NCBI GenBank assembly: GCA_030649165.1
Contig: JAUSGG010000116.1
Span: forward strand, 1-64,000
Direction of reading: 5' to 3'
Length of the DNA stretch: 64,000 nucleotides
DNA from: Armatimonadota bacterium
GTDB lineage: Bacteria; Armatimonadota; UBA5829; JAUSEB01
Positions within the stretch are counted from its first letter, which is position 1. Each line of letters opens with the position of its first letter. Below the pieces are notes generated by a model. That model saw only the letters and a program-made list of their open reading frames with translations. It was not told where the DNA came from and searched no databases. Shown here piece by piece: positions 23,184 to 34,190 of the stretch. The position numbers and the translations under genes are program-made.

Positions 23184-25994
23184 TCACTTCACCATCAGCT
23201 TAATAGACTTCCACAAACCGCCGAGCGCTCCGGGGTCATCGACACGGACCGCCAGTAGATTCGCCTTGCCCGGCCTGATCACTTTGGTCACGTCAAGGGC
23301 GAACGGCGTCCCCGCGCCTACCCCTATCGGAAGATTCTGTTCTCCCAAATATTGGTCGTTCAGCCAGACCTTCGCCCAATCGTCCGCCGCCCCGACCACA
23401 ACGAAGACCTTCTTGCCCGGCTCAATGGCCGGAGCGGTGAAATGCTTCCGGTACCAGGCCGCGCCGTTGTAGTCGACACCCTGTTCCTCCCAGAACTTTG
23501 CGATCTGGATGCTTCGCCACTTCGAATCGTTGAAACCTGTCGCATACCACTTTCCGCTGATGCCCTTGTTCCGATGGTCAATCGCAAACTTCCACCCGGT
23601 CTTGGGGAAGTCGAATATCTCGGTCATCGTCTTGCGCATCTCGGTGAAGGTTTCCGCGTCCGAATAGCCCGGCATTTCGGCAGCCTTATAGTTCGGCATC
23701 CCAGCCGGCGCGGGGTTTTCGTGCTGCTTGATTGCCGCGTCTACGTCTATTACAGAGTAAACCGGCGCCAGCGGCGGCCAATAACCGTCGTCTCCGGAAT
23801 ACTTCTTCTGGGGCTCCTCAAGCGCGATCCGGTGTTTGCGCAGATAGGCAATGCCGGCTCCATGGTCGATCAGCCTGTTGAGACTCTGAGCAATCCAACC
23901 GTATTTCGCGTCGTGCTCGAAACGACACTGGGCGTATGCGAACGCGTCCGACACCATCTTTACCCGATCGGCGAAACGCTTCTGAGAGGCGGGCAGATCG
24001 GCCACCGACTTCTCCGCCCTGGCGAGGCAGCCGGCCAATTCAGTCCAGAACTCATGTCTGATACCCGCTCTCGGATACCAATTGGAGCTTGGGCGCTCCA
24101 AGGCGTAGAAACGTTCCGCCATCAGCCAATACTCGCGCATCTCCTTCGCCGCCGGGCCATAATACTCCCGGAAGAACTCCTCCAGCGCGAGATCGACGTC
24201 CACATTCACGTCCCACACCAGCCTGCCCGATATGTAGTGGTTCAATCCCTGCGTGATGAATAGAGGCTGGTTCTCCAGCATCAGAAAAGTGCCGCCCAGG
24301 TCACGAAACGCCGGAATGTCTTCGCGCATCTTGTGGACCATCGACCATGGGCCCAGGTACGAAACCTGGCCGAAATAATCGTAGTAACCGAATTGCGGCA
24401 GCAGCTTACCCCAACCTTTCACCAGTTCGTAGAAGTGATGGTTCAGACTGCTGGTGGGGTCGTTCCACGGGCGGCTGTGATCGTAGACCCACATCATATC
24501 GCAGATGATCCCAGCGTGACGAGGGTGAGGTTTGGCGGTCTTCGGCAGTTCGATCTGCAGGCCGTAGACGAGAATGCCGAGGTATTTGTCCTTGAACTGC
24601 GGCTCCAGCCGGTCGTGTATCTCCTTGGAGAAATGCAGGAGGCGGTCGGCGGCTTGCATGCCGTCTTCTCTGGTCTGGCCATACTTCTTGTCCAGCGCCA
24701 GACAGCGGTCGCACAGGCACATGGGGCTATAGTCATTGGGATCCAGTGACGCGACTATGGCGTTAGGATCGCTCTTGAAATGGTTGTTGATGTTCTTGGC
24801 GACGATCTCGATCACGTCCGGGTTGGTGGAGCAAAAATTCGAGCTTGCCTTCCACCGGATATTGCCCTTGCCGTCGCGCGCGTAGTATTCCGGGAACTTG
24901 TCGAACGGGTAGATGCCTGGGTGTATGTGACCTTCCCAGCAGTGGCCGAAGCTCATGCGGCCATAGTTGACAACGGCGCGATTGCGCGCGTCCCAGAGCG
25001 GCGAGCGGCCCCAACTCACTCCGGAGCAGGATGACCACACCGATCCATGCGCCTCGTTGAGCTTCGGCAAGCGAACGGTCTTGTCCTTGGGAATGGGGAC
25101 CTCTTCACCCAGCGCGTTTGGCTGGAACCAGTGACAACCGAGGTGGTCGGTCAGCAGGCCGTAAATGCCGTTTCGCAGGCCCAGCGGTGTGGGCGATTCG
25201 ATAATCACGTTCCGGCCCTCTGTCCGCAGTCGATAGGCGTCATACAGACCTTTTGCCGCGGCGCCAAGATCGGCCTTCCGCAGGATGATAGCCGGACCCT
25301 CAGCCTTCGTCTTTACGGGCATTTCAGCGCCTGATTGCAGTTTCACAACGCGCTGCAGATCGCCAATTACCTCGTCTTTCGACGCAGGCTCCGATTCCAG
25401 GATGATGGTGTAGTCCGTCTTTCCGGCAGAGGCCAGCATCAAAGCCGGTATCGGACGGTTCGCCTTGCGCCAGGCCAGCTCTGCCTCGATACTGCTCAGT
25501 GCGCGGGGAGCGTAAGTGGCGACCACACGGCCCGCCTCAGTGATCTTCTCCAAACCGTCGGCGCGCATATCCACAGGGTCGCGGCCCTGCACGGCAATGT
25601 ACAAGTCCCGTTCCACTCTTCCATTGACGCTTGTGCTTCCGGTCAGGATTTGCCGTTTCAGCGCCGTAGGCGCGGTAAAACGCCACTGCCAGATCACGCT
25701 CTTCCCCGGAGCGACTGTGCGGGCGAATCCCGCTCCCGCGAAACCGATTGGTCGGCAGGCGTTCAAACGGGCGGACAGTTTCAACGACCTTGGGCCTTCG
25801 TTGACGAATTGCGTACGGGCCAGAATACGCCCCGGACGGGTTTTGTCCGGCGCGCTCGTCGTATAGACCTTGAGGTCGCGGTAGCGGCGAAGTGGCGGCA
25901 TCCGGCCGGCCCCAAACGCGCTGGGCGCGATTGATGCCGCTGCCAGCAGCACGATGAAACCCACGAAGCGCTTGCATCTGAATGACGAATACAT
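23184..25994 (-). CDS. Secreted DUF4838 / alpha-glucuronidase-like protein, 936 aa
   Basis: Starts at the ATG 25994 behind AAGGAGAG; the frame opens at 26039 but that start would precede the signal peptide (FVGFIVLLAAASIAPSAFGAG). After about 110 residues of beta-sandwich comes an alpha-glucuronidase N-terminal-like domain (TDYTIILESEPASKDEVIGD), LRNGIYGLLTDHLGCHWFQP, then the DUF4838 region with PMCLCDRC (a C-x-C-x-x-C motif). The C-terminal ~150 residues are a galactose-binding-like jelly roll (WYATGFNDSKW, VWLNDQYLGEQ). The family is a putative polysaccharide hydrolase group related to GH67 folds; its substrate is unknown. Third of three DUF4838 genes in the operon and the most divergent. 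Confidence 0.8.
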   Translation of the reverse strand: MYSSFRCKRFVGFIVLLAAASIAPSAFGAGRMPPLRRYRDLKVYTTSAPDKTRPGRILARTQFVNEGPRSLKLSARLNACRPIGFAGAGFARTVAPGKSVIWQWRFTAPTALKRQILTGSTSVNGRVERDLYIAVQGRDPVDMRADGLEKITEAGRVVATYAPRALSSIEAELAWRKANRPIPALMLASAGKTDYTIILESEPASKDEVIGDLQRVVKLQSGAEMPVKTKAEGPAIILRKADLGAAAKGLYDAYRLRTEGRNVIIESPTPLGLRNGIYGLLTDHLGCHWFQPNALGEEVPIPKDKTVRLPKLNEAHGSVWSSCSGVSWGRSPLWDARNRAVVNYGRMSFGHCWEGHIHPGIYPFDKFPEYYARDGKGNIRWKASSNFCSTNPDVIEIVAKNINNHFKSDPNAIVASLDPNDYSPMCLCDRCLALDKKYGQTREDGMQAADRLLHFSKEIHDRLEPQFKDKYLGILVYGLQIELPKTAKPHPRHAGIICDMMWVYDHSRPWNDPTSSLNHHFYELVKGWGKLLPQFGYYDYFGQVSYLGPWSMVHKMREDIPAFRDLGGTFLMLENQPLFITQGLNHYISGRLVWDVNVDVDLALEEFFREYYGPAAKEMREYWLMAERFYALERPSSNWYPRAGIRHEFWTELAGCLARAEKSVADLPASQKRFADRVKMVSDAFAYAQCRFEHDAKYGWIAQSLNRLIDHGAGIAYLRKHRIALEEPQKKYSGDDGYWPPLAPVYSVIDVDAAIKQHENPAPAGMPNYKAAEMPGYSDAETFTEMRKTMTEIFDFPKTGWKFAIDHRNKGISGKWYATGFNDSKWRSIQIAKFWEEQGVDYNGAAWYRKHFTAPAIEPGKKVFVVVGAADDWAKVWLNDQYLGEQNLPIGVGAGTPFALDVTKVIRPGKANLLAVRVDDPGALGGLWKSIKLMVK

Positions 25995-26043
25995 CGATCT
26001 CTCCTTCAGTATCGCGGAATCGTAAATCGCGAAAGGCACAGAA

Positions 26044-26112
26044 CTCCTCTATCCCTCCCGATTCTATCCCTCCGCGTACCCTACCTATCCCTCCAGGTAC
26101 CCTACCTGGAGG
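26044..26112. repeat. Spacer repeat with 10-bp hairpin below DUF4838 gene 2
   Basis: Repeated CTATCCCTCC units followed by a perfect hairpin (arms CCTCCAGGTA 26090-26099 and TACCTGGAGG 26103-26112, 3-nt loop). It lies 10 bp past the stop of the 808-aa gene on the minus strand, where a terminator or RNA-processing hairpin would sit, but no T-tract follows. The same text recurs at 28632-28692 behind the sister gene. Confidence 0.7.
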
Positions 26113-26122
26113 ACAAGCCCAA

Positions 26123-28549
26123 TCACTTCACGTACAAAAACGGTCTCTCGTAAATGCCGTCCGCCCCTACATAGGGGTTTGCCTCAAGCACGCGCACGGC
26201 TATCACGTTCTTCCCGGCTTTGATGTACGGGCTGACCCCGATGTCCATCTCCTGAGGCAGCAGCCAGGGTATTGTGTACTCACTTCGTCCCGCATACCGG
26301 CCATTGACCCAGACCCACGCTTGACTCACAAACCCCGGAAGGAACAACCTGGCCTCCTTGCCGTTCGGTACTGCCGGCAAATCGACCGTAAACCTGTACC
26401 ATCCAATGCCCGTATATGGATACCCCTCACGGCTCATCGTAGGCAGGCCGTCTTCATCCTTCAGCTTCTGGTTCTGCCAGCCCGCGCTGGTTGAACAAAG
26501 CTGCCATTTGGAATCATTATAGTCGGGCTCCATCCAGCGATCCGAACGTCCGACATCATGCTTATCCGTACTGAACCGAGCCATTTCGGGCAGCGCAGCG
26601 AGCATCTCCATCGACGCCAGACGTTCCATGCGTTCAACCTGGGTGGGCATGCCTGCATAGTCAAAGCCCCACGTGCCGGCAAACTTGCTCACCCGCTGCA
26701 TCTCCTTCTTTGGCCCCTGCATCTCACGCATCAGCCTGGCGGCATCCCGGAATCGAAGCTCCCGCTGCGCTTGAAGGAAATCCATATACATCCGCAGATG
26801 ATCGAACTGAAGCCGCTCCATTCGCACGTGCAGTTTGTCCGTATCGGAGACAGCCGCCGCCTCCGCGCGCGCCATATCGCCGGCCAGTTGGGCGATCAAC
26901 TGGGGTTTATACACGGATTGCAGTATGCTGACGTTTGAGCTGTGATACGGCCCGTCATCAAATGCCGCTTCCAGCTTATTGTAGTAGTCCCGCATCGGCA
27001 CGGCGGCGGGACCGAACCACTTGCTGTAGAAATCGTTAAGGACTGCCTTCATGTCAGCCTTGGTGTTCCATTCCAGAGCGAAGCGCGCCACGTAGGAGGC
27101 GATAGCATTGTGCATCAGGTCCGAGCAGTCAAGGTCGTGGAAGCCTATTGCGCCCGCTTCTTTCATAAGCGGAATTGTCCTGATCGCGCGCCGGGTCATC
27201 GGCGTGACCGTGCCTGTAGTGTTCACCAGCGAATAGTTGTAGCCGTATATCCACACCTTGTCGCTCAGCTTGCACCACTGTTTCAAGTAGTTGTATTGCT
27301 GGCGGTTTTGCCAGCACCTGGGGTCGTCGTACCCGTGCATCGAGCATGCAAGAATATCCGCGAACATCACCGTCAGATTGCGATGCTTGTTGAATTCCGG
27401 GCCGACTTCCGGCGGCGGGTAGCGGTTAAAGTATCCGTTGCTCGCAATGAGGTAGCCAGGATACTTTTCGGCAACTGCATCCAGCAGCTTGTTTACGAAG
27501 TAGAAATACTCCTGCGAGGTCGTGTACTCTGTCGTCGGCCCATAGGCCATTCCATCCGGGAATCGGTTTGAAATCTTCAGGCATAGTTCGCACACGCAGA
27601 TGGGAGCGCCATCCGCGGGGGCAAAACAGGATACCCGCTGGCCGTATTTCACCGGTTCCTCGAATCTCTTTAAGATCTCTTCCAGTAGGCGAGGCTGGCC
27701 GGCATACTTGGGATCGTTCCGACGAAGCTCATCCGCCGTGCACGCCTCGTTGGGGTTGCGCGTTCCATCGGGCTGCAGCGCAAACCATTCAGGATGGGCC
27801 TTAATCTGGTCTTTCGGCAAAATGTTTCCAACCGTTCCATCGGCAACCATGCCAAACCAGCCTACGGTTCTCGGGTTCATCCGGTTATGGAGAAGCCACA
27901 TGTAAAGCTGAACTCCGCCCTCATCATCGGTGGCTATGCCGTAAGCGCGCACGGGAAAATCCGGATGCTCCTCCACAGATAATTCAGGAACTCTCAGAGT
28001 AGCCGATTTCGGCACGACCTCACCATACTCGCCAGGCATAAACCATCGAACGCCCAGGCGATTGAGGAGATCGTAAACCGCATACCGAGTGCCGAGATAC
28101 ATCTCATCCGACGTGATAGAATCGTATGCCAGGGGACATCTTTGTTTGTCGGTCCGCTCGTCTCCGACTCTGGTATCATTGCCCGCCACGACCAGCGTGT
28201 CTCCCTTGCAGTGGATTACGTAGCCTTCCTCGCGCAGATTTGTGGTAATGCCGTCCGGGATCTTCAGGCCCTCGATGGCGTCGGTCAGACGGCTTCGGCC
28301 AACCAGGATCTTCGGGCCGCTCGGAAGGTCATTGGCGGCGTCGGTATAGATCGGCAATTCGGCGCCGCTGATCCTTACCACGTAACTCCGAAGCTCATCA
28401 GCGGCGGCTTTCGCGTTATGGCTGGGCTTTTCGGCAATAACAATACTGCAGGCGGATTTACCGTCTTTGACCAGCGTGAATTGGGGTTCGGCGGCCGCGC
28501 CGGTGACCGATCCCGCTACCAGCAGCACAATGCAGAGAATCCACTTCAT
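26123..28549 (-). CDS. Secreted DUF4838 protein, 808 aa, paralogue 2
   Basis: The ATG at 28549 follows GGAGG by 9 bp and gives MKWILCIVLLVAGSVTGAAAE, a clean signal peptide. Domains: alpha-glucuronidase N-terminal-like fold (FTLVKDGKSACSIVIAEKPS; KILVGRSRLTDAI), RYAVYDLLNRLGVRWFMPGE, DUF4838 core with ICVCELC (C-x-C-x-x-C) and SQEYFYFVNKLLDAVAEKYP, then a jelly-roll carbohydrate-binding-like domain (WYRFTVDLPAV, AWVWVNGRYAGRSEY). Predicted to be exported and to bind or cleave an acidic or deoxy polysaccharide; no activity is shown. Exactly the same length as the sister at 28705. Confidence 0.8.
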   Translation of the reverse strand: MKWILCIVLLVAGSVTGAAAEPQFTLVKDGKSACSIVIAEKPSHNAKAAADELRSYVVRISGAELPIYTDAANDLPSGPKILVGRSRLTDAIEGLKIPDGITTNLREEGYVIHCKGDTLVVAGNDTRVGDERTDKQRCPLAYDSITSDEMYLGTRYAVYDLLNRLGVRWFMPGEYGEVVPKSATLRVPELSVEEHPDFPVRAYGIATDDEGGVQLYMWLLHNRMNPRTVGWFGMVADGTVGNILPKDQIKAHPEWFALQPDGTRNPNEACTADELRRNDPKYAGQPRLLEEILKRFEEPVKYGQRVSCFAPADGAPICVCELCLKISNRFPDGMAYGPTTEYTTSQEYFYFVNKLLDAVAEKYPGYLIASNGYFNRYPPPEVGPEFNKHRNLTVMFADILACSMHGYDDPRCWQNRQQYNYLKQWCKLSDKVWIYGYNYSLVNTTGTVTPMTRRAIRTIPLMKEAGAIGFHDLDCSDLMHNAIASYVARFALEWNTKADMKAVLNDFYSKWFGPAAVPMRDYYNKLEAAFDDGPYHSSNVSILQSVYKPQLIAQLAGDMARAEAAAVSDTDKLHVRMERLQFDHLRMYMDFLQAQRELRFRDAARLMREMQGPKKEMQRVSKFAGTWGFDYAGMPTQVERMERLASMEMLAALPEMARFSTDKHDVGRSDRWMEPDYNDSKWQLCSTSAGWQNQKLKDEDGLPTMSREGYPYTGIGWYRFTVDLPAVPNGKEARLFLPGFVSQAWVWVNGRYAGRSEYTIPWLLPQEMDIGVSPYIKAGKNVIAVRVLEANPYVGADGIYERPFLYVK

Positions 28550-28631
28550 TATGAACAACCTCCAATATCTCCCAATACAGTGGTTACTGCCATCCATGAT
28601 CGGGCGCGATATGTCATCGCGTCCGAAACAG

Positions 28632-28692
28632 AACTCCTCTATCCCTCCAGGTACCTTACCTCCTCTATCCCTCCAGGTACCTTACCTGGAGG
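28632..28692. repeat. Spacer repeat with 10-bp hairpin below DUF4838 gene 1
   Basis: Two tandem copies of CTCTATCCCTCCAGGTACCT, the second completing a perfect hairpin (arms 28670-28679 and 28683-28692). It is the same element as at 26044-26112 and lies 12 bp past the stop of the upstream paralogue. The conserved location suggests that gene and hairpin were duplicated together or that the hairpin separates cistrons. Confidence 0.7.
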
Positions 28693-28704
28693 ACAAAGAC
28701 CGAG

Positions 28705-31131
28705 TCACTTCACATACAGAAACGGCCTCTCGTATATCCCATTGGCCCCGAAATACTCCTGAAGACTCAGGACTCGCAGGGCAATGACATTCTTGCCCGG
28801 CTTCAGATACGGGCTGATATCGGCATCCATCTCATGCGGGCGCAAGAACCCCGTCTGGTAATCATTTCGCCCAACGTAATGGCCGTTCACCCACACCCAC
28901 GCCTCGTTAGTCACAGCCGGGCAGAACAAGTGCGCCTGTTTACCCTGTGCCGCCGTCGGAACGTCGAGCATAAAACGATACCAGGCCACACCCTTGTACG
29001 GATGGCCGTCCGTAGTGACCGACGGCAAGCCATCATCGTCCTTGAGGTCCTGGTCCTGCCAGCCGGAATCGACCTTGGCGGTCTGCCATTTCCGGTCGTT
29101 GTAGTCGGCCTCCATCCAACGTTCTGAACGGCCAACGTCGTTCTTGTCGAAACGGAACCTGGCAGTTTCCGGCAGCGGCGCCAGCATTTCCATCCTCGCC
29201 AACCGGTCCATGCGCTCCGCCTCCCAGTCCATCCCATAAGGGGTCTGGTTCCAGCCCATGTGCTTGCTGATCTTGCGCATCCGCAACTTCAGAGCGAGCA
29301 TTTGCCGCATCATTACGGCCGCGTCCCGGAAACGGCATTCCTGCTTCGTATGCAGCGAGTCCACGTACAACCGCAGATGGTCATACATGAGCCGCTCCAC
29401 GCGGACATGCAGTTTCTCCGTGTCCGTGTCGGCGGCGGCCTCCGCCCGCGCCATATCATCGGCCAACTGAGCCATCAGCTTCGGGTCGTAGATAGCGGGC
29501 AGAACAACGTCCTCGTGTCCGTGGCACGGAGTGGCATCGAACGCGTTCTGCAGCGTCTCGTAGTAGTTGCGCATAGGAACTGCCGCGGGACCAAACCACT
29601 TGCTGTAGAAGTCATCGAGGACCGCGTCGAGGTTGACCTTTGTATTCCACTCAAGAGCGAACCTCGCCACATAAGTGGGTATGCCCAACTGTAATATGTC
29701 GATCCAATCCTGATCGCAGAAGCCGATCGAACCGGCCTCTTTGACCAAAGGGATGTTGGTCCGTATGCGCTTCACCATCGGAGTAAGCGTTCCCTTGGTC
29801 ACCAGCATTGTGTAGTTATAGTTATAGCACCACACTTTGTCGCTGAGCCGGCTCCACCGCTTGAGGAAGTTGTACTGCTGGCGGTTCTGCCAGCACTTGG
29901 GGTCGTTGAAGCGATGAAGAGTGCAGCCGGTGATGTCGGCGAACATGATCGTCAGATTCCGATACCGATTGAATTCCGGGCCCACCTCAGGAGGATTGCA
30001 GCGGTTTGCATACCCATTCGTGGCGATGATGTGCCCCGGATACTTCTTTCCCATCGCGTCTAATAACCCGTTGACGAAGAAGAAGTACTCTTGCGAAGTA
30101 AGATACCCCGGAACGAGGTCTTCACCCGTGGAAAAACGGGTGGACTTTTGCCTGCACAGGTCACATTCACAGGTGGGCGTGCCGTCGTCGGGGGAGAACG
30201 ACGTGACCCTGTGACCGTGTTCCACGTCTTTGCCTATCCACTCCATCAATGGGTCGAGAAGACGCGGCCGGCCGGCGTATTTCGGATCGTTCCTGCGCAA
30301 CTCGTCGCTCATGCACGGCATTCCTGCCAGTCGGGTTCCATCCGGCTGCAGGGCGAACCATTCCGGATAGACCTTCACCCTATCTCTGGGCATAATATTG
30401 AAGATGGAGCCGTCCCCGGGGAGTCCGAACCAGAACTCACTGCGGGGGTTCATCCGGTTACGGACCATCCACAACTCGCGAGCGTCCGTCATGGCCTGTC
30501 CGTCCGCTCCACACGCGAAGAAAGAGCGCATCGGAAAGTCAGGACGTTCGATCAGTGAGAGTTCGGGAATCCGCAGATTGGCGGACTTGGGAACGACTTC
30601 GCCATACTCCCCAGGCATGAACCAGCGCACTCCCAGGCGATTCAGCAGATCACACACGGCATAGCGGGTCCCGAGATACATGGCATTGCCGATGCTTGCG
30701 ACACACGGATTCGTGCATCTGGGTGGGGACTCAGGAGAATCTCCCACCTCCGTATCGTTGCCGGCCAGTACCAATGTATCGCCGGTAGAGCGGACTATGT
30801 AACCTTCCTCACGGAAGGCCGGGGTGATGCCTTCAGGAATCTTCAAGTCGGGAATGGCGTCGGTGAGACGGCTGCGACCAACCAATATCCTGGACCCAGT
30901 CGGGATATTCGCGTCGGCGTCTGTGTAGATTTCCAGCCTCGCGCCGCTGATCTTCTCTATGGATGTCTGGAGTTCTTTCGCGCCGAGTCTCGCGTTATCG
31001 CTCGGCTTCTCAGCAGTGACGATGCAGCACGCCGGCTTACCGTTCTTAACGAGCGTGAAGGTCGCGGCAGACGCTGCGGCGACCATGAGCAAGAAAGCTA
31101 AGATAGTGAATCCGCGGAGCAACCATTTCAC
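28705..31131 (-). CDS. Secreted DUF4838 protein, 808 aa, paralogue 1
   Basis: I place the start at a GTG (31131): it aligns with the ATG-AAA-TGG start of the sister gene, has GGGGG at the matching distance, and gives exactly the same length. The frame also opens at an upstream TTG. The signal peptide is KWLLRGFTILAFLLMVAAAS. It has the same domain order as the sister: glucuronidase-like N domain (FTLVKNGKPACCIVTAEKPS), GVRWFMPGEYGEVVPKSANL, DUF4838 core with TCECDLC, and a C-terminal jelly roll ending GIYERPFLYVK. First gene of the minus-strand cluster that continues to 18594. Gene duplication is clear. Confidence 0.8.
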   Translation of the reverse strand: MKWLLRGFTILAFLLMVAAASAATFTLVKNGKPACCIVTAEKPSDNARLGAKELQTSIEKISGARLEIYTDADANIPTGSRILVGRSRLTDAIPDLKIPEGITPAFREEGYIVRSTGDTLVLAGNDTEVGDSPESPPRCTNPCVASIGNAMYLGTRYAVCDLLNRLGVRWFMPGEYGEVVPKSANLRIPELSLIERPDFPMRSFFACGADGQAMTDARELWMVRNRMNPRSEFWFGLPGDGSIFNIMPRDRVKVYPEWFALQPDGTRLAGMPCMSDELRRNDPKYAGRPRLLDPLMEWIGKDVEHGHRVTSFSPDDGTPTCECDLCRQKSTRFSTGEDLVPGYLTSQEYFFFVNGLLDAMGKKYPGHIIATNGYANRCNPPEVGPEFNRYRNLTIMFADITGCTLHRFNDPKCWQNRQQYNFLKRWSRLSDKVWCYNYNYTMLVTKGTLTPMVKRIRTNIPLVKEAGSIGFCDQDWIDILQLGIPTYVARFALEWNTKVNLDAVLDDFYSKWFGPAAVPMRNYYETLQNAFDATPCHGHEDVVLPAIYDPKLMAQLADDMARAEAAADTDTEKLHVRVERLMYDHLRLYVDSLHTKQECRFRDAAVMMRQMLALKLRMRKISKHMGWNQTPYGMDWEAERMDRLARMEMLAPLPETARFRFDKNDVGRSERWMEADYNDRKWQTAKVDSGWQDQDLKDDDGLPSVTTDGHPYKGVAWYRFMLDVPTAAQGKQAHLFCPAVTNEAWVWVNGHYVGRNDYQTGFLRPHEMDADISPYLKPGKNVIALRVLSLQEYFGANGIYERPFLYVK

Positions 31132-32131
31132 GGCAACAACCCCCTGCGGCAAACGATCCGCCCACCGATTGACGACACGCAGCGTTTATCGGAGCAAGGA
31201 GGGACCCCCATGTTACGATGGCGGAATGCTCCATTCGTGGACGACCGATTACCTGTTCAACGCCGGGGAGCCGCTGCCCTTCATGGCCCCGCGCGAAGGA
31301 GTACACCAGCAGTGACGGAACGGTCAACGCGGGCTTGACCTGCCGGATTTGGAGAGGTCGAGACGGCCTCAACACCCGCTCCAGGAGACTTAACCACAGA
31401 CGAACACAGATAGAGGTTGATCGTTGGGAGTCGAGGGAGTCGCGGATGCTTCGAGAGTGGCTCCAAACGTGGTGAAAAAGCAGTGAAAACGCACCGAAAT
31501 ACATGCGAAACTGCGCAAAACCGCATGGGTTTTGGCGGATACTGACTGACTATTCACGGCTATCGGGTGGTTTCCGAAAACGCCATTTCCGCGTTCTCCG
31601 GGCCTCTGGGACCCAAAATGACCTGAAGGCGCAGGAGTTTCGCCAGCGAAGATGAACGTTATATGGCCTTGAGCTTTCACCTATCATCTTTTGACCGCCA
31701 TTCGCCGCAAGTCTTATTCAGTTGTCAAAGATATTCGTTTTGCACGGATTCAGCTTTCAGGAAACCGCCGATGAACGCTGATGGACGCGGATGCTGGTTG
31801 GCGGTTGGCGGTTGACGGTTCGTGGTCCCTCACTAATCACGAACCACGAACCACTGTCCGCTGACCACTAATAGTGAATAGACGACGGGGGATTGGGATT
31901 TGTTCCCGGGTGGCGGAAGTGTTTTTCGGAAGAGTTTTTGGGAGGGGGAGAGGGGGGTCAGAGTCGGAGGAGTCGACAGAGCGCGAGGCCGGGGAACCAT
32001 TCACAGCAGGGGCACTGGATAGGGCTCTGACCCCGTTGTTCAGTCTACCGCGACTATTCCGCTGTCGGCTCATTCCGGGACATCATAATCCGTTCCCACG
32101 TCACCGTGACATCTTGTCCCCGAACTGCTTC
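31132..32131. other. 1-kb non-coding stretch
   Basis: No frame here has coding character. It holds low-complexity text: an AACCACAGACGAACACAGAT-type string near 31392, GAGTCG-rich patches (31426-31440, 31961-31979), and an imperfect inverted run of CACGAACCACGAACCAC near 31820-31860. A 30-codon frame ending at 31315 lacks a convincing start and homology. It must contain the promoter of the minus-strand DUF4838 cluster, which I could not locate. Confidence 0.5.
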
Positions 32132-32160
32132 TTGACACGCCTCTCGTCTGGCCGGATAAT
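32132..32160 (+). promoter_or_regulatory. Sigma70-type promoter of TPR-MBL gene
   Basis: TTGACA (32132-32137), a 17-bp spacer and GATAAT (32155-32160): a near-consensus promoter. The start would lie near 32167, leaving a leader of about 70 nt. It shows that the fusion gene has its own transcription unit. Confidence 0.7.
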
Positions 32161-32237
32161 GTGGCTGAACTCGTTTTCCTATCCAGGCTGTCAGGAACAG
32201 TGGTACATACGCCCCGTGCCACTCGGAGGCTAGAGCG

Positions 32238-34190
32238 ATGGTAAATCAGTTGATGAAGAAGGTAACACGACTCAGAAGGCAGATCGACGCGGCGTGGGAG
32301 GCCGACAATTATTGGGAGCTGATAGACCTTTACAATAACCTGGCAGCCATTGGCAGTGCCAATCTTCGCGGAGAGGACTCTCACCACCGCGGCTACGCAT
32401 ACAACGAGCTTGGTAATTATGATAAGGCCATCGAATGCTACCACAAGGCGCTGGATACATCTGACTACAAAACCCCCGGCGGCACCTGGAACGACATGGG
32501 GCTGGCTTATGCCAACAAGGGCGACTACGGTGAGGCGATTAAGTGCTACCAAAAGGCACTGGATGTCCACGATTACGACGCCCGCGGTGACACTTTAAAC
32601 AATATGGGGATGGCCTACGCCTACAAGGGTGACCACGACAAGGCAATGGAGCGCTATCAAGAGGCGCTGAAGGCAACCGGCTACGACACCCCCGGTGACA
32701 CCTGGCATAATATGGGCTGGATTTATGCTGACAAGGGGGATCACGATAACGCTATCAAGTGCTATAAGAAAGCGTTGAAAATGGCATGTGCTGGCAATAT
32801 CGGTATGACCTATTATAACCTCGGCTTGTCCTATAAGGAAAAAAGGAACTATCCTGACGCGCTTACTGCTTTCAAAAAGGCATCCAAGAAGTTCACAAAA
32901 GCAGAACGTGTCTCCGAGGCCGAATACGCCGAAGCACAGGCGGAGACCGTCAAACTGGCGCAGAGCGCAGGGGCGGAGGCCGCAGAGACAATGTATCCAG
33001 CCCTCTCGGCGGTTCGCTCGCGTATGACAAAGGAACGTGACCTCTACGACCCGCTCGAGGAGCTTCTAAGCTCGGAGGGCGAAACGACATTGGCCGTGAA
33101 AGCGTACGTCCGCCGCGCCGAGCGAGGTGATAGAAAGCTTCCACCAGATGCCCTCGTATTCCTGAAGGGTTGGAGTTCATCCGAGCCGATCCTAGCCGAA
33201 GGCGCTGAGAACAAGGAATCTCTTCTTGGCGGCGGGATGTTCTTCCGCTGGGAAAACAAGGGCCTTGTGGTAGATCCAGGCATCGACTTTGTGTCAAACT
33301 TTCATAGATCCGGGTACCTCATCCATGACGTTGACGGCATAGTGGTGACCCACGATCATGTAGATCACACCCTCGACCTCGCAGCACTGGACGACCTTGT
33401 GTTCAAGATGTTGGGTCACGAGGATTCTAACCGAAGACGTTACTGCCTTTTCTGTGCCGGCCTGCGGCACAGCCTGAAATGCAAGGACAGGTATTGCTAT
33501 GATGGAGAATTTCGCGGAGGGGACGAGGACAGAGAACGCGTCCACACCAGTCCTTGCATCCCCGGCATCTCCATCCAATGTTTTCGGACAAGCCATGACG
33601 ACGAGAATCCCGATACCTTTGGCTTTGTATGTAGAATGAAGAATGCACGTCGCAAGGTTGAGGTTGGAGTCACGTCGGACACGAGCTATTCCGATCCACT
33701 GACACGTAAGCTCGCCAAGTGTGACATTATCGTCGCCAACATTGCCCAACCCGACTCCAAGGAATACAATGATGCCAAATACCTTAACTCTTCCCACCTT
33801 GGGCTCAATGGCACTCGTGAGCTCATCAAGGGAACCAAGGCGCAGGTATATGTCATCACTGAGTTTTGGGCCGGACTCGGCGACATGCGCGTGCCCTTAT
33901 GCCAGAAGCTGGCTTACGATCTCAAGCGGATCGACGGCGTGGAGGGCAAGTGCATAATCCCTGCGGATATCGGCATGACCATTGATCTTGACTTCACCGG
34001 AGACGGAAAACCCAACATAAGGATGGCTTGCAGCTCGTGCAGTTCAAAGGAATCACTGCAATTGTTTCCTTGTCGTGACATCATTGTTGTAAGACCCGAC
34101 AGACAATATGGGCCGATTCGGTACCTATGCCCTGACTGTGCCCGCCGCCTTACGCTTCCTTCGCACGAACCCGGTTCCAAGTGTACCTAA
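32238..34190 (+). CDS. TPR / metallo-beta-lactamase fusion protein
   Basis: 650 aa, cytoplasmic, ATG with CGGAGG 8 bp upstream. Residues 1-260 are about five TPRs (NELGNYDKAIECYHKAL and similar), closely alike. After a helical linker comes a metallo-beta-lactamase fold (about 320-590) with all usual ligands: THDHVDH (H372, H374, D376, H377), H453 in TSHDDE, D481 in TSDTSY, and H520 in SSHLG. The TSH...FGF, SDT and SHL pattern is closest to RNase Z/UlaG-like hydrolases. The last ~50 residues hold CSSC and CPDC pairs, a possible zinc knuckle. Codons are less GC-rich than those of the neighbours. It stands alone with its own promoter, so it could be a nuclease or phosphodiesterase controlled by a TPR-bound partner. 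Confidence 0.85.
   Translation: MVNQLMKKVTRLRRQIDAAWEADNYWELIDLYNNLAAIGSANLRGEDSHHRGYAYNELGNYDKAIECYHKALDTSDYKTPGGTWNDMGLAYANKGDYGEAIKCYQKALDVHDYDARGDTLNNMGMAYAYKGDHDKAMERYQEALKATGYDTPGDTWHNMGWIYADKGDHDNAIKCYKKALKMACAGNIGMTYYNLGLSYKEKRNYPDALTAFKKASKKFTKAERVSEAEYAEAQAETVKLAQSAGAEAAETMYPALSAVRSRMTKERDLYDPLEELLSSEGETTLAVKAYVRRAERGDRKLPPDALVFLKGWSSSEPILAEGAENKESLLGGGMFFRWENKGLVVDPGIDFVSNFHRSGYLIHDVDGIVVTHDHVDHTLDLAALDDLVFKMLGHEDSNRRRYCLFCAGLRHSLKCKDRYCYDGEFRGGDEDRERVHTSPCIPGISIQCFRTSHDDENPDTFGFVCRMKNARRKVEVGVTSDTSYSDPLTRKLAKCDIIVANIAQPDSKEYNDAKYLNSSHLGLNGTRELIKGTKAQVYVITEFWAGLGDMRVPLCQKLAYDLKRIDGVEGKCIIPADIGMTIDLDFTGDGKPNIRMACSSCSSKESLQLFPCRDIIVVRPDRQYGPIRYLCPDCARRLTLPSHEPGSKCT

Follow-up and report, generated by a model that had tools for sequence, protein, structure and literature searches.

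A rare bacterial family of TPR-linked hydrolases of the RNase Z/YhfI type with a glutamate at the seventh metal-ligand position

The gene and its surroundings

The gene under study encodes a protein with tetratricopeptide repeats (TPR), a metallo-beta-lactamase (MBL) domain and C-terminal cysteine pairs. It lies in the window, i.e. the whole stretch of 64,000 nucleotides that was analysed, and starts with ATG (Table 1). A preliminary description of the locus had presented it as a solitary gene with a near-consensus promoter, placed between non-coding, repeat-rich stretches. The analysis bears out the solitary position, the promoter sequence and the non-coding flanks. The putative promoter ranks first among 9 candidates in the region (1.9 expected in shuffled sequences). 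The upstream spacer (31153-32237, 1085 bp) contains dispersed repeats with 47 partial copies elsewhere in the genome. The GC content of the gene (0.533; GC3 0.628) is lower than that of the six neighbours measured (0.56-0.61; GC3 0.68-0.78).

Upstream, on the opposite strand (23184-31152, -), three tandem paralogues are found that we take from reading of their open reading frames to be DUF4838-like; two of them (26123-28597 and 28705-31152) are 59% identical over 807 aa. The downstream neighbour, read in the same manner, is presumably a nitrilase-like secreted hydrolase. Rfam and tRNA scans of the 64-kb window returned no match. No defence gene lies beside the window gene and, as far as the open reading frames of the window can be read by eye, no trypsin-like or caspase protease gene does either.

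Table 1. Features of the gene and its promoter region (window positions)
Feature	Position	Strand	Basis
Sigma-70-like promoter TTGACA-N17-GATAAT, putative	32132..32160	+	11/12 consensus positions
GGAGG, ribosome-binding-site-like, 8 nt upstream of ATG	32225..32229	+	sequence
TPR-MBL-Cys protein, 650 aa	32238..34190	+	ORF call; homologues of equal layout in other phyla
Five TPR units, aa 44-223, with a period of exactly 36 aa (108 nt)	32367..32906	+	Pfam, repeats, AF2
MBL-fold hydrolase domain, about aa 305-586	33150..33995	+	Lactamase_B_2, AF2, Foldseek to 1zkp/YhfI (TMt up to 0.79-0.80)
GGG motif, aa 331-333, signature of the family before the MBL core	33228..33236	+	family alignment
HxHxDH metal motif H372/H374/D376/H377	33351..33368	+	conserved in active members
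H453, metal-ligand position	33594..33596	+	family and paralogue alignments
D481, bridging metal-ligand position	33678..33680	+	family and paralogue alignments
H520, motif-IV His, not seventh metal ligand	33795..33797	+	joint alignment with MBL paralogues
E542, seventh-ligand position normally His	33861..33863	+	Glu in 40/40 site-keeping family rows; His in 8/8 paralogues
C-terminal C598xxC601...C631xxC634 module	34029..34139	+	four Cys conserved in subfamily; AF2

Domain layout

TPRs, an MBL hydrolase and terminal cysteine pairs had been proposed to share this single open reading frame, and the proposal is borne out by Pfam, by AF2 structure prediction and by the conserved cysteines. Pfam TPR_1 matches five stretches of the protein (E=1.8e-37), and Lactamase_B_2 matches above its family cut-off (E=1.6e-12). 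The tandem helical hairpins of 34-36 aa that define TPR proteins were recovered by Pfam, AF2 and the fold search, with block pLDDT values mostly of 93-98 over the helices of this region. The earlier count of about five repeats was accurate, but the units are not near-identical, since amino acid identity between the 36-aa units is only 25-53%.

In the AF2 model of the full protein, which was built with 26 homologues (mean pLDDT 84.6), a helical solenoid extends to about residue 295 and is followed by the MBL domain and then the cysteine module. The arrangement of the TPR and MBL parts relative to each other is undefined because of a pTM of 0.58; the MBL part modelled alone reached a pTM of 0.80. 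A loop inside the MBL domain (408-438) is of low confidence (pLDDT < 50). The two cysteine pairs, CSSC (598-601) and CPDC (631-634), are present as described and conserved in relatives, all four residues being kept in 22 rows of the window's subfamily. AF2 predicts strands and then a helix beginning at the second CxxC pair, and the module is probably a small zinc-binding domain.

The N-terminal arm diverges faster than the enzyme, as seen in the relatives L023 and L024 (identity 0.52 for the N-terminal vs 0.79 for the C-terminal part) and L032 and L048 (0.54 vs 0.80). Recent duplication of TPR units is also apparent in relatives, with neighbouring units up to 92% identical in L048. Fast divergence together with recent unit copies would be expected if the arm reads changing partners. 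Faster divergence is, however, a frequent trait of TPRs that needs no sensing role to explain it, and TPRs can be plain scaffolds.

Fold class

When the full model was compared with the PDB by Foldseek, the best non-TPR matches were 1zkp and YhfI, followed by an annotated arylsulfatase (8gyg), Apyc1, PNGM-1, ELAC1 and RNase Z. The MBL part alone gave YhfI, 1zkp, the arylsulfatase, RNase Z, PNGM-1, ELAC1 and Apyc1 as the highest matches and PhnP as a lower one. The best non-TPR matches are all RNase Z-clan enzymes (TMt 0.75-0.80 for 1zkp). The protein had been called RNase Z/UlaG-like; the first half of this label agrees with the structural comparison, while the name UlaG is absent among the 50 best matches listed. 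Since solved structures are matched weakly at the level of sequence profiles (best E 1.7e-6), the substrate class is deduced from the fold. YhfI, yeast PDE1, Apyc1 and RNase Z have been grouped as class II phosphodiesterases with two zinc ions and an HxHxDH motif (PMC9117128), which makes a phosphodiester the most likely substrate.

Other libraries were less specific. An NCBIfam scan of the window protein returned only generic TPR or weak MBL matches, a PHROGs search led mainly to a generic metal-dependent hydrolase family, and a fold search of BFVD was dominated by giant-virus TPR proteins and uninformative on the MBL part.

The metal site

All expected metal ligands of such a hydrolase had been reported as present, namely H372, H374, D376, H377, H453, D481 and H520. 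In an HHalign comparison with a single PhnP-like paralogue, ligand positions one to six could be aligned (94% probability), but the alignment ended before motifs IV-V. For this reason, a joint MAFFT alignment was made of 26 family members and eight PhnP/RNase Z/arylsulfatase-type MBL proteins, the latter taken from the window's genome and three relatives. Here, the first six residues align with the usual MBL ligands, so that the superfamily pattern HxHxDH...H...D is found on an MBL fold. H520, by contrast, aligns with the motif-IV His (HLGxxG in the family; HFN, HMG or HLD in most paralogues). At the seventh-ligand position, all eight paralogues have a His, mostly within '..TH(L/F)S', and the window protein has E542. 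The seven residues named at the outset are all conserved in active relatives and six of them are usual ligands, but the seventh-ligand role belongs to a position where His has given way to Glu.

This exchange is uniform throughout the family. In a 44-row alignment, position 542 is Glu in all 40 rows that keep the site and reach the position; L065, with HxDxDH, is counted among the 40, L057 ends before residue 542, and L037, L042 and L068 are degenerate. The GGG motif occurs in every row reaching its position, except the degenerate L068. A loss of the metal ligands across the family, which would have spoken against an enzyme, is confined to two degenerate WOR-3 members and one distant member. 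In the WOR-3 pair (L037 and L042), the changes H372R, D376E, H453Y, H520S or R and E542K are found in combination, and this joint loss of HxHxDH, H453, H520 and E542 argues, on sequence grounds, that E542 belongs to the metal site.

Both WOR-3 genes (L037:1662-3851 and L042:8789-10969) retain the TPR-MBL-Cys layout with the four cysteines and the TPR arm while the metal site is lost. Their products are possibly pseudoenzymes.

A superfamily review describes MBL ligand sets as normally limited to His and Asp; it adds that the sets of iron oxidoreductases are more acidic and that the iron-dependent oxidoreductase CmlA clusters among phosphoesterases (PMC7785958). Measured against His/Asp-only sets, the Glu is unusual and could signify another metal and another chemistry. 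It is conceivable that the protein, instead of being a zinc hydrolase, is an enzyme or sensor that depends on Fe or Mn, with a TPR arm that passes on a redox or oxygen signal. The carboxylate that E542 adds to the site would be in line with this, given the association of acidic sets with iron and the precedent of CmlA. The fold and the remaining motifs nevertheless match phosphodiesterases, and a Pfam scan found no flavodoxin or other redox domain in the window protein; an Fe/Mn enzyme is quite improbable. Whatever the metal, the replacement of the seventh-ligand His by Glu within the RNase Z/YhfI clan offers a handle on metal and substrate specificity.

Family and distribution

Homologues of the same TPR-MBL-Cys layout, the search for which had been proposed, were found in other phyla. 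A single-protein scan of the genome contig collection gave no relatives; an alignment query then yielded 39 loci in genome contigs and two in viral contigs. After duplicate removal, the family comprises 43 relatives in at least 11 bacterial groups. An MBL model matched 25 of 26 members scanned, and a given TPR model matched up to 20. The window's subfamily, in which all four cysteines are conserved, forms a 21-row clade with a support of 100/100 and contains members from Armatimonadota, Verrucomicrobiota, Bacteroidota, Planctomycetota, Sumerlaeota, WOR-3, Thermodesulfobacteriota and Bacillota. No description of this family was found in searches of the literature, which covered TPR-MBL fusions and a link to TPR-S conflict systems, or in the curated libraries consulted, in agreement with the initial statement that no characterised protein of this layout is known. 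The best name at present is that of an undescribed family of TPR-linked RNase Z/YhfI-type hydrolases with a Glu-substituted site. Members can be recognised by the pattern GGG...HxHxDH...H...D...HLGxxG...E; generic models label them just 'MBL' and 'TPR'.

Several members deviate from the common layout. The N-terminus of the Firmicutes proteins L028, L045 and L047 is shorter and of a different kind, with cysteines of its own. L026 (8054-12546) is without a TPR arm and overlaps a gene for a protein of 1095 aa, which by eye we take to be PfkB/HAD-like and for which no Pfam family was found at E 0.1. L068 (9179-10714, Coatesbacteria), as read by eye, combines TPRs and a degenerate MBL domain with a STAS-like domain in one protein. 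The Pontibacter copy (L041:8568-10648) is split over three open reading frames by a frameshift, as a pseudogene or through a sequencing error.

The gene is rare and usually solitary, being present in 0.3-3% of genomes per group. Matches were found in 8/291 genomes of Armatimonadota (the window's own among them), 9/392 of Planctomycetota, 2/388 of the Verrucomicrobiota sample, 2/342 in the order of Rufibacter and 1/391 in the class of the Lachnospiraceae match. Cultured relatives include Rufibacter hautae and Brevifollis gellanilyticus. In the tree, the Armatimonadota members L023 and L024 fall into a starred group of six rows, together with Verrucomicrobiota and Planctomycetota. The gene has probably been transferred horizontally, individual cases being unsure because MAG bins can hold foreign contigs.

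Distribution also bears on the question whether the protein might be an ordinary metabolic or signal-turnover hydrolase, such as a cyclic-nucleotide phosphodiesterase, whose TPRs just oligomerise or localise it. A few relatives have a signalling neighbour (at L055, from reading of the sequence, presumably a receiver/HD-GYP/TPR-like protein) or the STAS-like N-terminus of L068, as would suit such an enzyme. The closest folds, YhfI and Apyc1, cleave cyclic nucleotides as well (PMC9117128). A core function, on the other hand, would be expected phylum-wide rather than in so small a fraction of genomes, and a loss of the active site with the TPR arm kept, as in WOR-3, is unusual for a metabolic enzyme. 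An everyday hydrolase of this sort is therefore unlikely.

Gene neighbourhoods

The solitary clade has no conserved gene context. Its neighbours vary by genome and are mostly metabolic or structural genes. A consistent embedding in a known housekeeping pathway, which the preliminary description had named as counter-evidence, was not seen among the neighbours of the relatives.

Outside the solitary arrangement, some gene orders recur. A three-gene Firmicutes/prophage cassette (L028:7512-10234, L036:9866-12137, L045:9497-12352 and L047:9524-12177) consists of the MBL gene of the family and genes for proteins of about 140 aa and about 186 aa. In L056 (6607-11746) and L065 (2979-9098), a radical SAM gene precedes a long TPR-like MBL gene of the family and then a cyclase-like gene with DGGW prenyltransferase/squalene-cyclase-like repeats, an order common to Aquicultor and a Calditrichaeota MAG. 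Directly downstream of the Planctomycetes members L060-L064 (L060:7177-8805, L061:6402-7919, L062:7863-9182 and L064:1240-2982) lies a gene for a membrane protein that, by our reading, is presumably DUF445-like.

A role in defence had been suggested as possible, and some neighbourhoods point in this direction. The neighbours of L036 include one TIR protein of ThsB type (E 5.7e-103) and another that is SpbK-like; this is the one locus with clearly defence-like neighbours. Two copies were found in viral contigs of IMG/VR, one beside serine recombinases (L028) and one beside an integrase (L029), and a homologous subtilase adjoins both Bacteroidota members (L033 and L041). MBL nuclease-protease pairs have been described in immunity (PMC12799240). 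Together with the patchy, transferred distribution, these observations would fit an anti-phage or conflict effector. Such a protein would detect a signal of infection through its TPR arm or a partner and then set free the MBL domain, which would act as a nuclease or as a toxin that destroys nucleotides, by analogy with the MBL nucleases of Hachiman, AVAST and canu that are gated by proteolysis. Yet neighbours in the solitary clade are mostly ordinary genes, and the window gene itself has no defence gene at its side. For the queries tried, 72,556 plasmids and 50,697 phage records contained no family match, and two further viral scans returned just the same two contigs. No PADLOC family covers the protein either, the search giving weak TPR cross-hits and one PDC-M48B match at 0.016 over 37 residues, and no whole-protein model. 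A defence role is not established by these data, and an anti-phage effector appears doubtful, if possible.

Proposed function

Layout, fold class, a conserved site with the His-to-Glu exchange, family breadth and patchiness are established here. Of the initial interpretation, a TPR-linked hydrolase of RNase Z/YhfI type is upheld by the fold search and the conserved site, and gating by the TPRs is what we infer. The reading that we prefer, and consider about evenly poised between right and wrong, is a partner-gated, single-gene metallo-phosphodiesterase or nuclease of the RNase Z/YhfI/PhnP clan with Glu542 in its site. Such a protein would be a soluble, probably cytosolic, regulated hydrolase encoded by a single gene. 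Its C-terminal half would act as a binuclear MBL enzyme that cuts a phosphodiester, be it a cyclic or linear nucleotide or a nucleic acid, and the second metal would be held partly by Glu542 instead of the usual His. The N-terminal TPR solenoid would bind a protein or peptide and thereby gate or direct the enzyme, and the terminal cysteine module, as a putative zinc-binding domain, may help to dock the substrate. A gene that spreads horizontally and is kept by few strains would suggest a conditional role, in stress or conflict, and not a housekeeping one.

A bolder version, put forward tentatively and rather unlikely to be correct, is a horizontally spread family of TPR-guided effectors in which the rebuilt site confers a new metal or substrate specificity and the fast-evolving TPR array serves as sensor in a stress or anti-phage system of one gene. 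If this were true, relatives would have added partners to the solitary enzyme, namely the companions in the three-gene Firmicutes cassette and the subtilase in Bacteroidota, and two deep lineages would have added the radical SAM and cyclase-like pair. The solitary TPR-enzyme layout, the fast-diverging arm and the patchy transfer make it reasonable to consider a conditional or immune function for the family.

Relation to known systems

The closest known enzymes are YhfI and Apyc1 (PDB 6kns/6knt, 1zkp and 7u2s), which give the best fold matches, share HxHxDH and are matched weakly at the profile level. Each of these entries consists of one MBL domain of about 245-270 aa, whereas the window protein also has a TPR arm, a C-terminal cysteine module and a Glu in the seventh-ligand position.

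RNase Z/ELAC1 and PhnP belong to the same clan, and the window protein aligns with PhnP-like paralogues at six of the seven ligand positions and at the motif-IV His; the motif-V His of these enzymes is replaced by Glu in the window protein. An assignment to RNase Z proper (TIGR02651) was rejected on account of a score of 23.3 against a cut-off of 292.95 bits and of the motif-V change. The UlaG family, an RNase-fold phosphoesterase relative that uses Mn (PMC3219644), has no TPR arm.

Among immune systems, HamM, the Avs1-type proteins and CanC are MBL hydrolases of patchy distribution, with TPR domains in some canu loci; they are ComEC-type nuclease-like and lie beside trypsin-like or caspase proteases (PMC12799240). 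The window gene differs in that it stands alone and its best fold matches are YhfI and RNase Z, and the proteases next to L033 and L041 are subtilases, not trypsin or caspase relatives. Inserts that block the active site and carry protease cut sites are a further mark of those nucleases; in the window protein, the low-confidence loop at 408-438 lies inside the MBL domain. Because of the different best fold match and the missing trypsin or caspase partner, the protein is not filed with those nucleases, although it may work by analogy with gated MBL nucleases.
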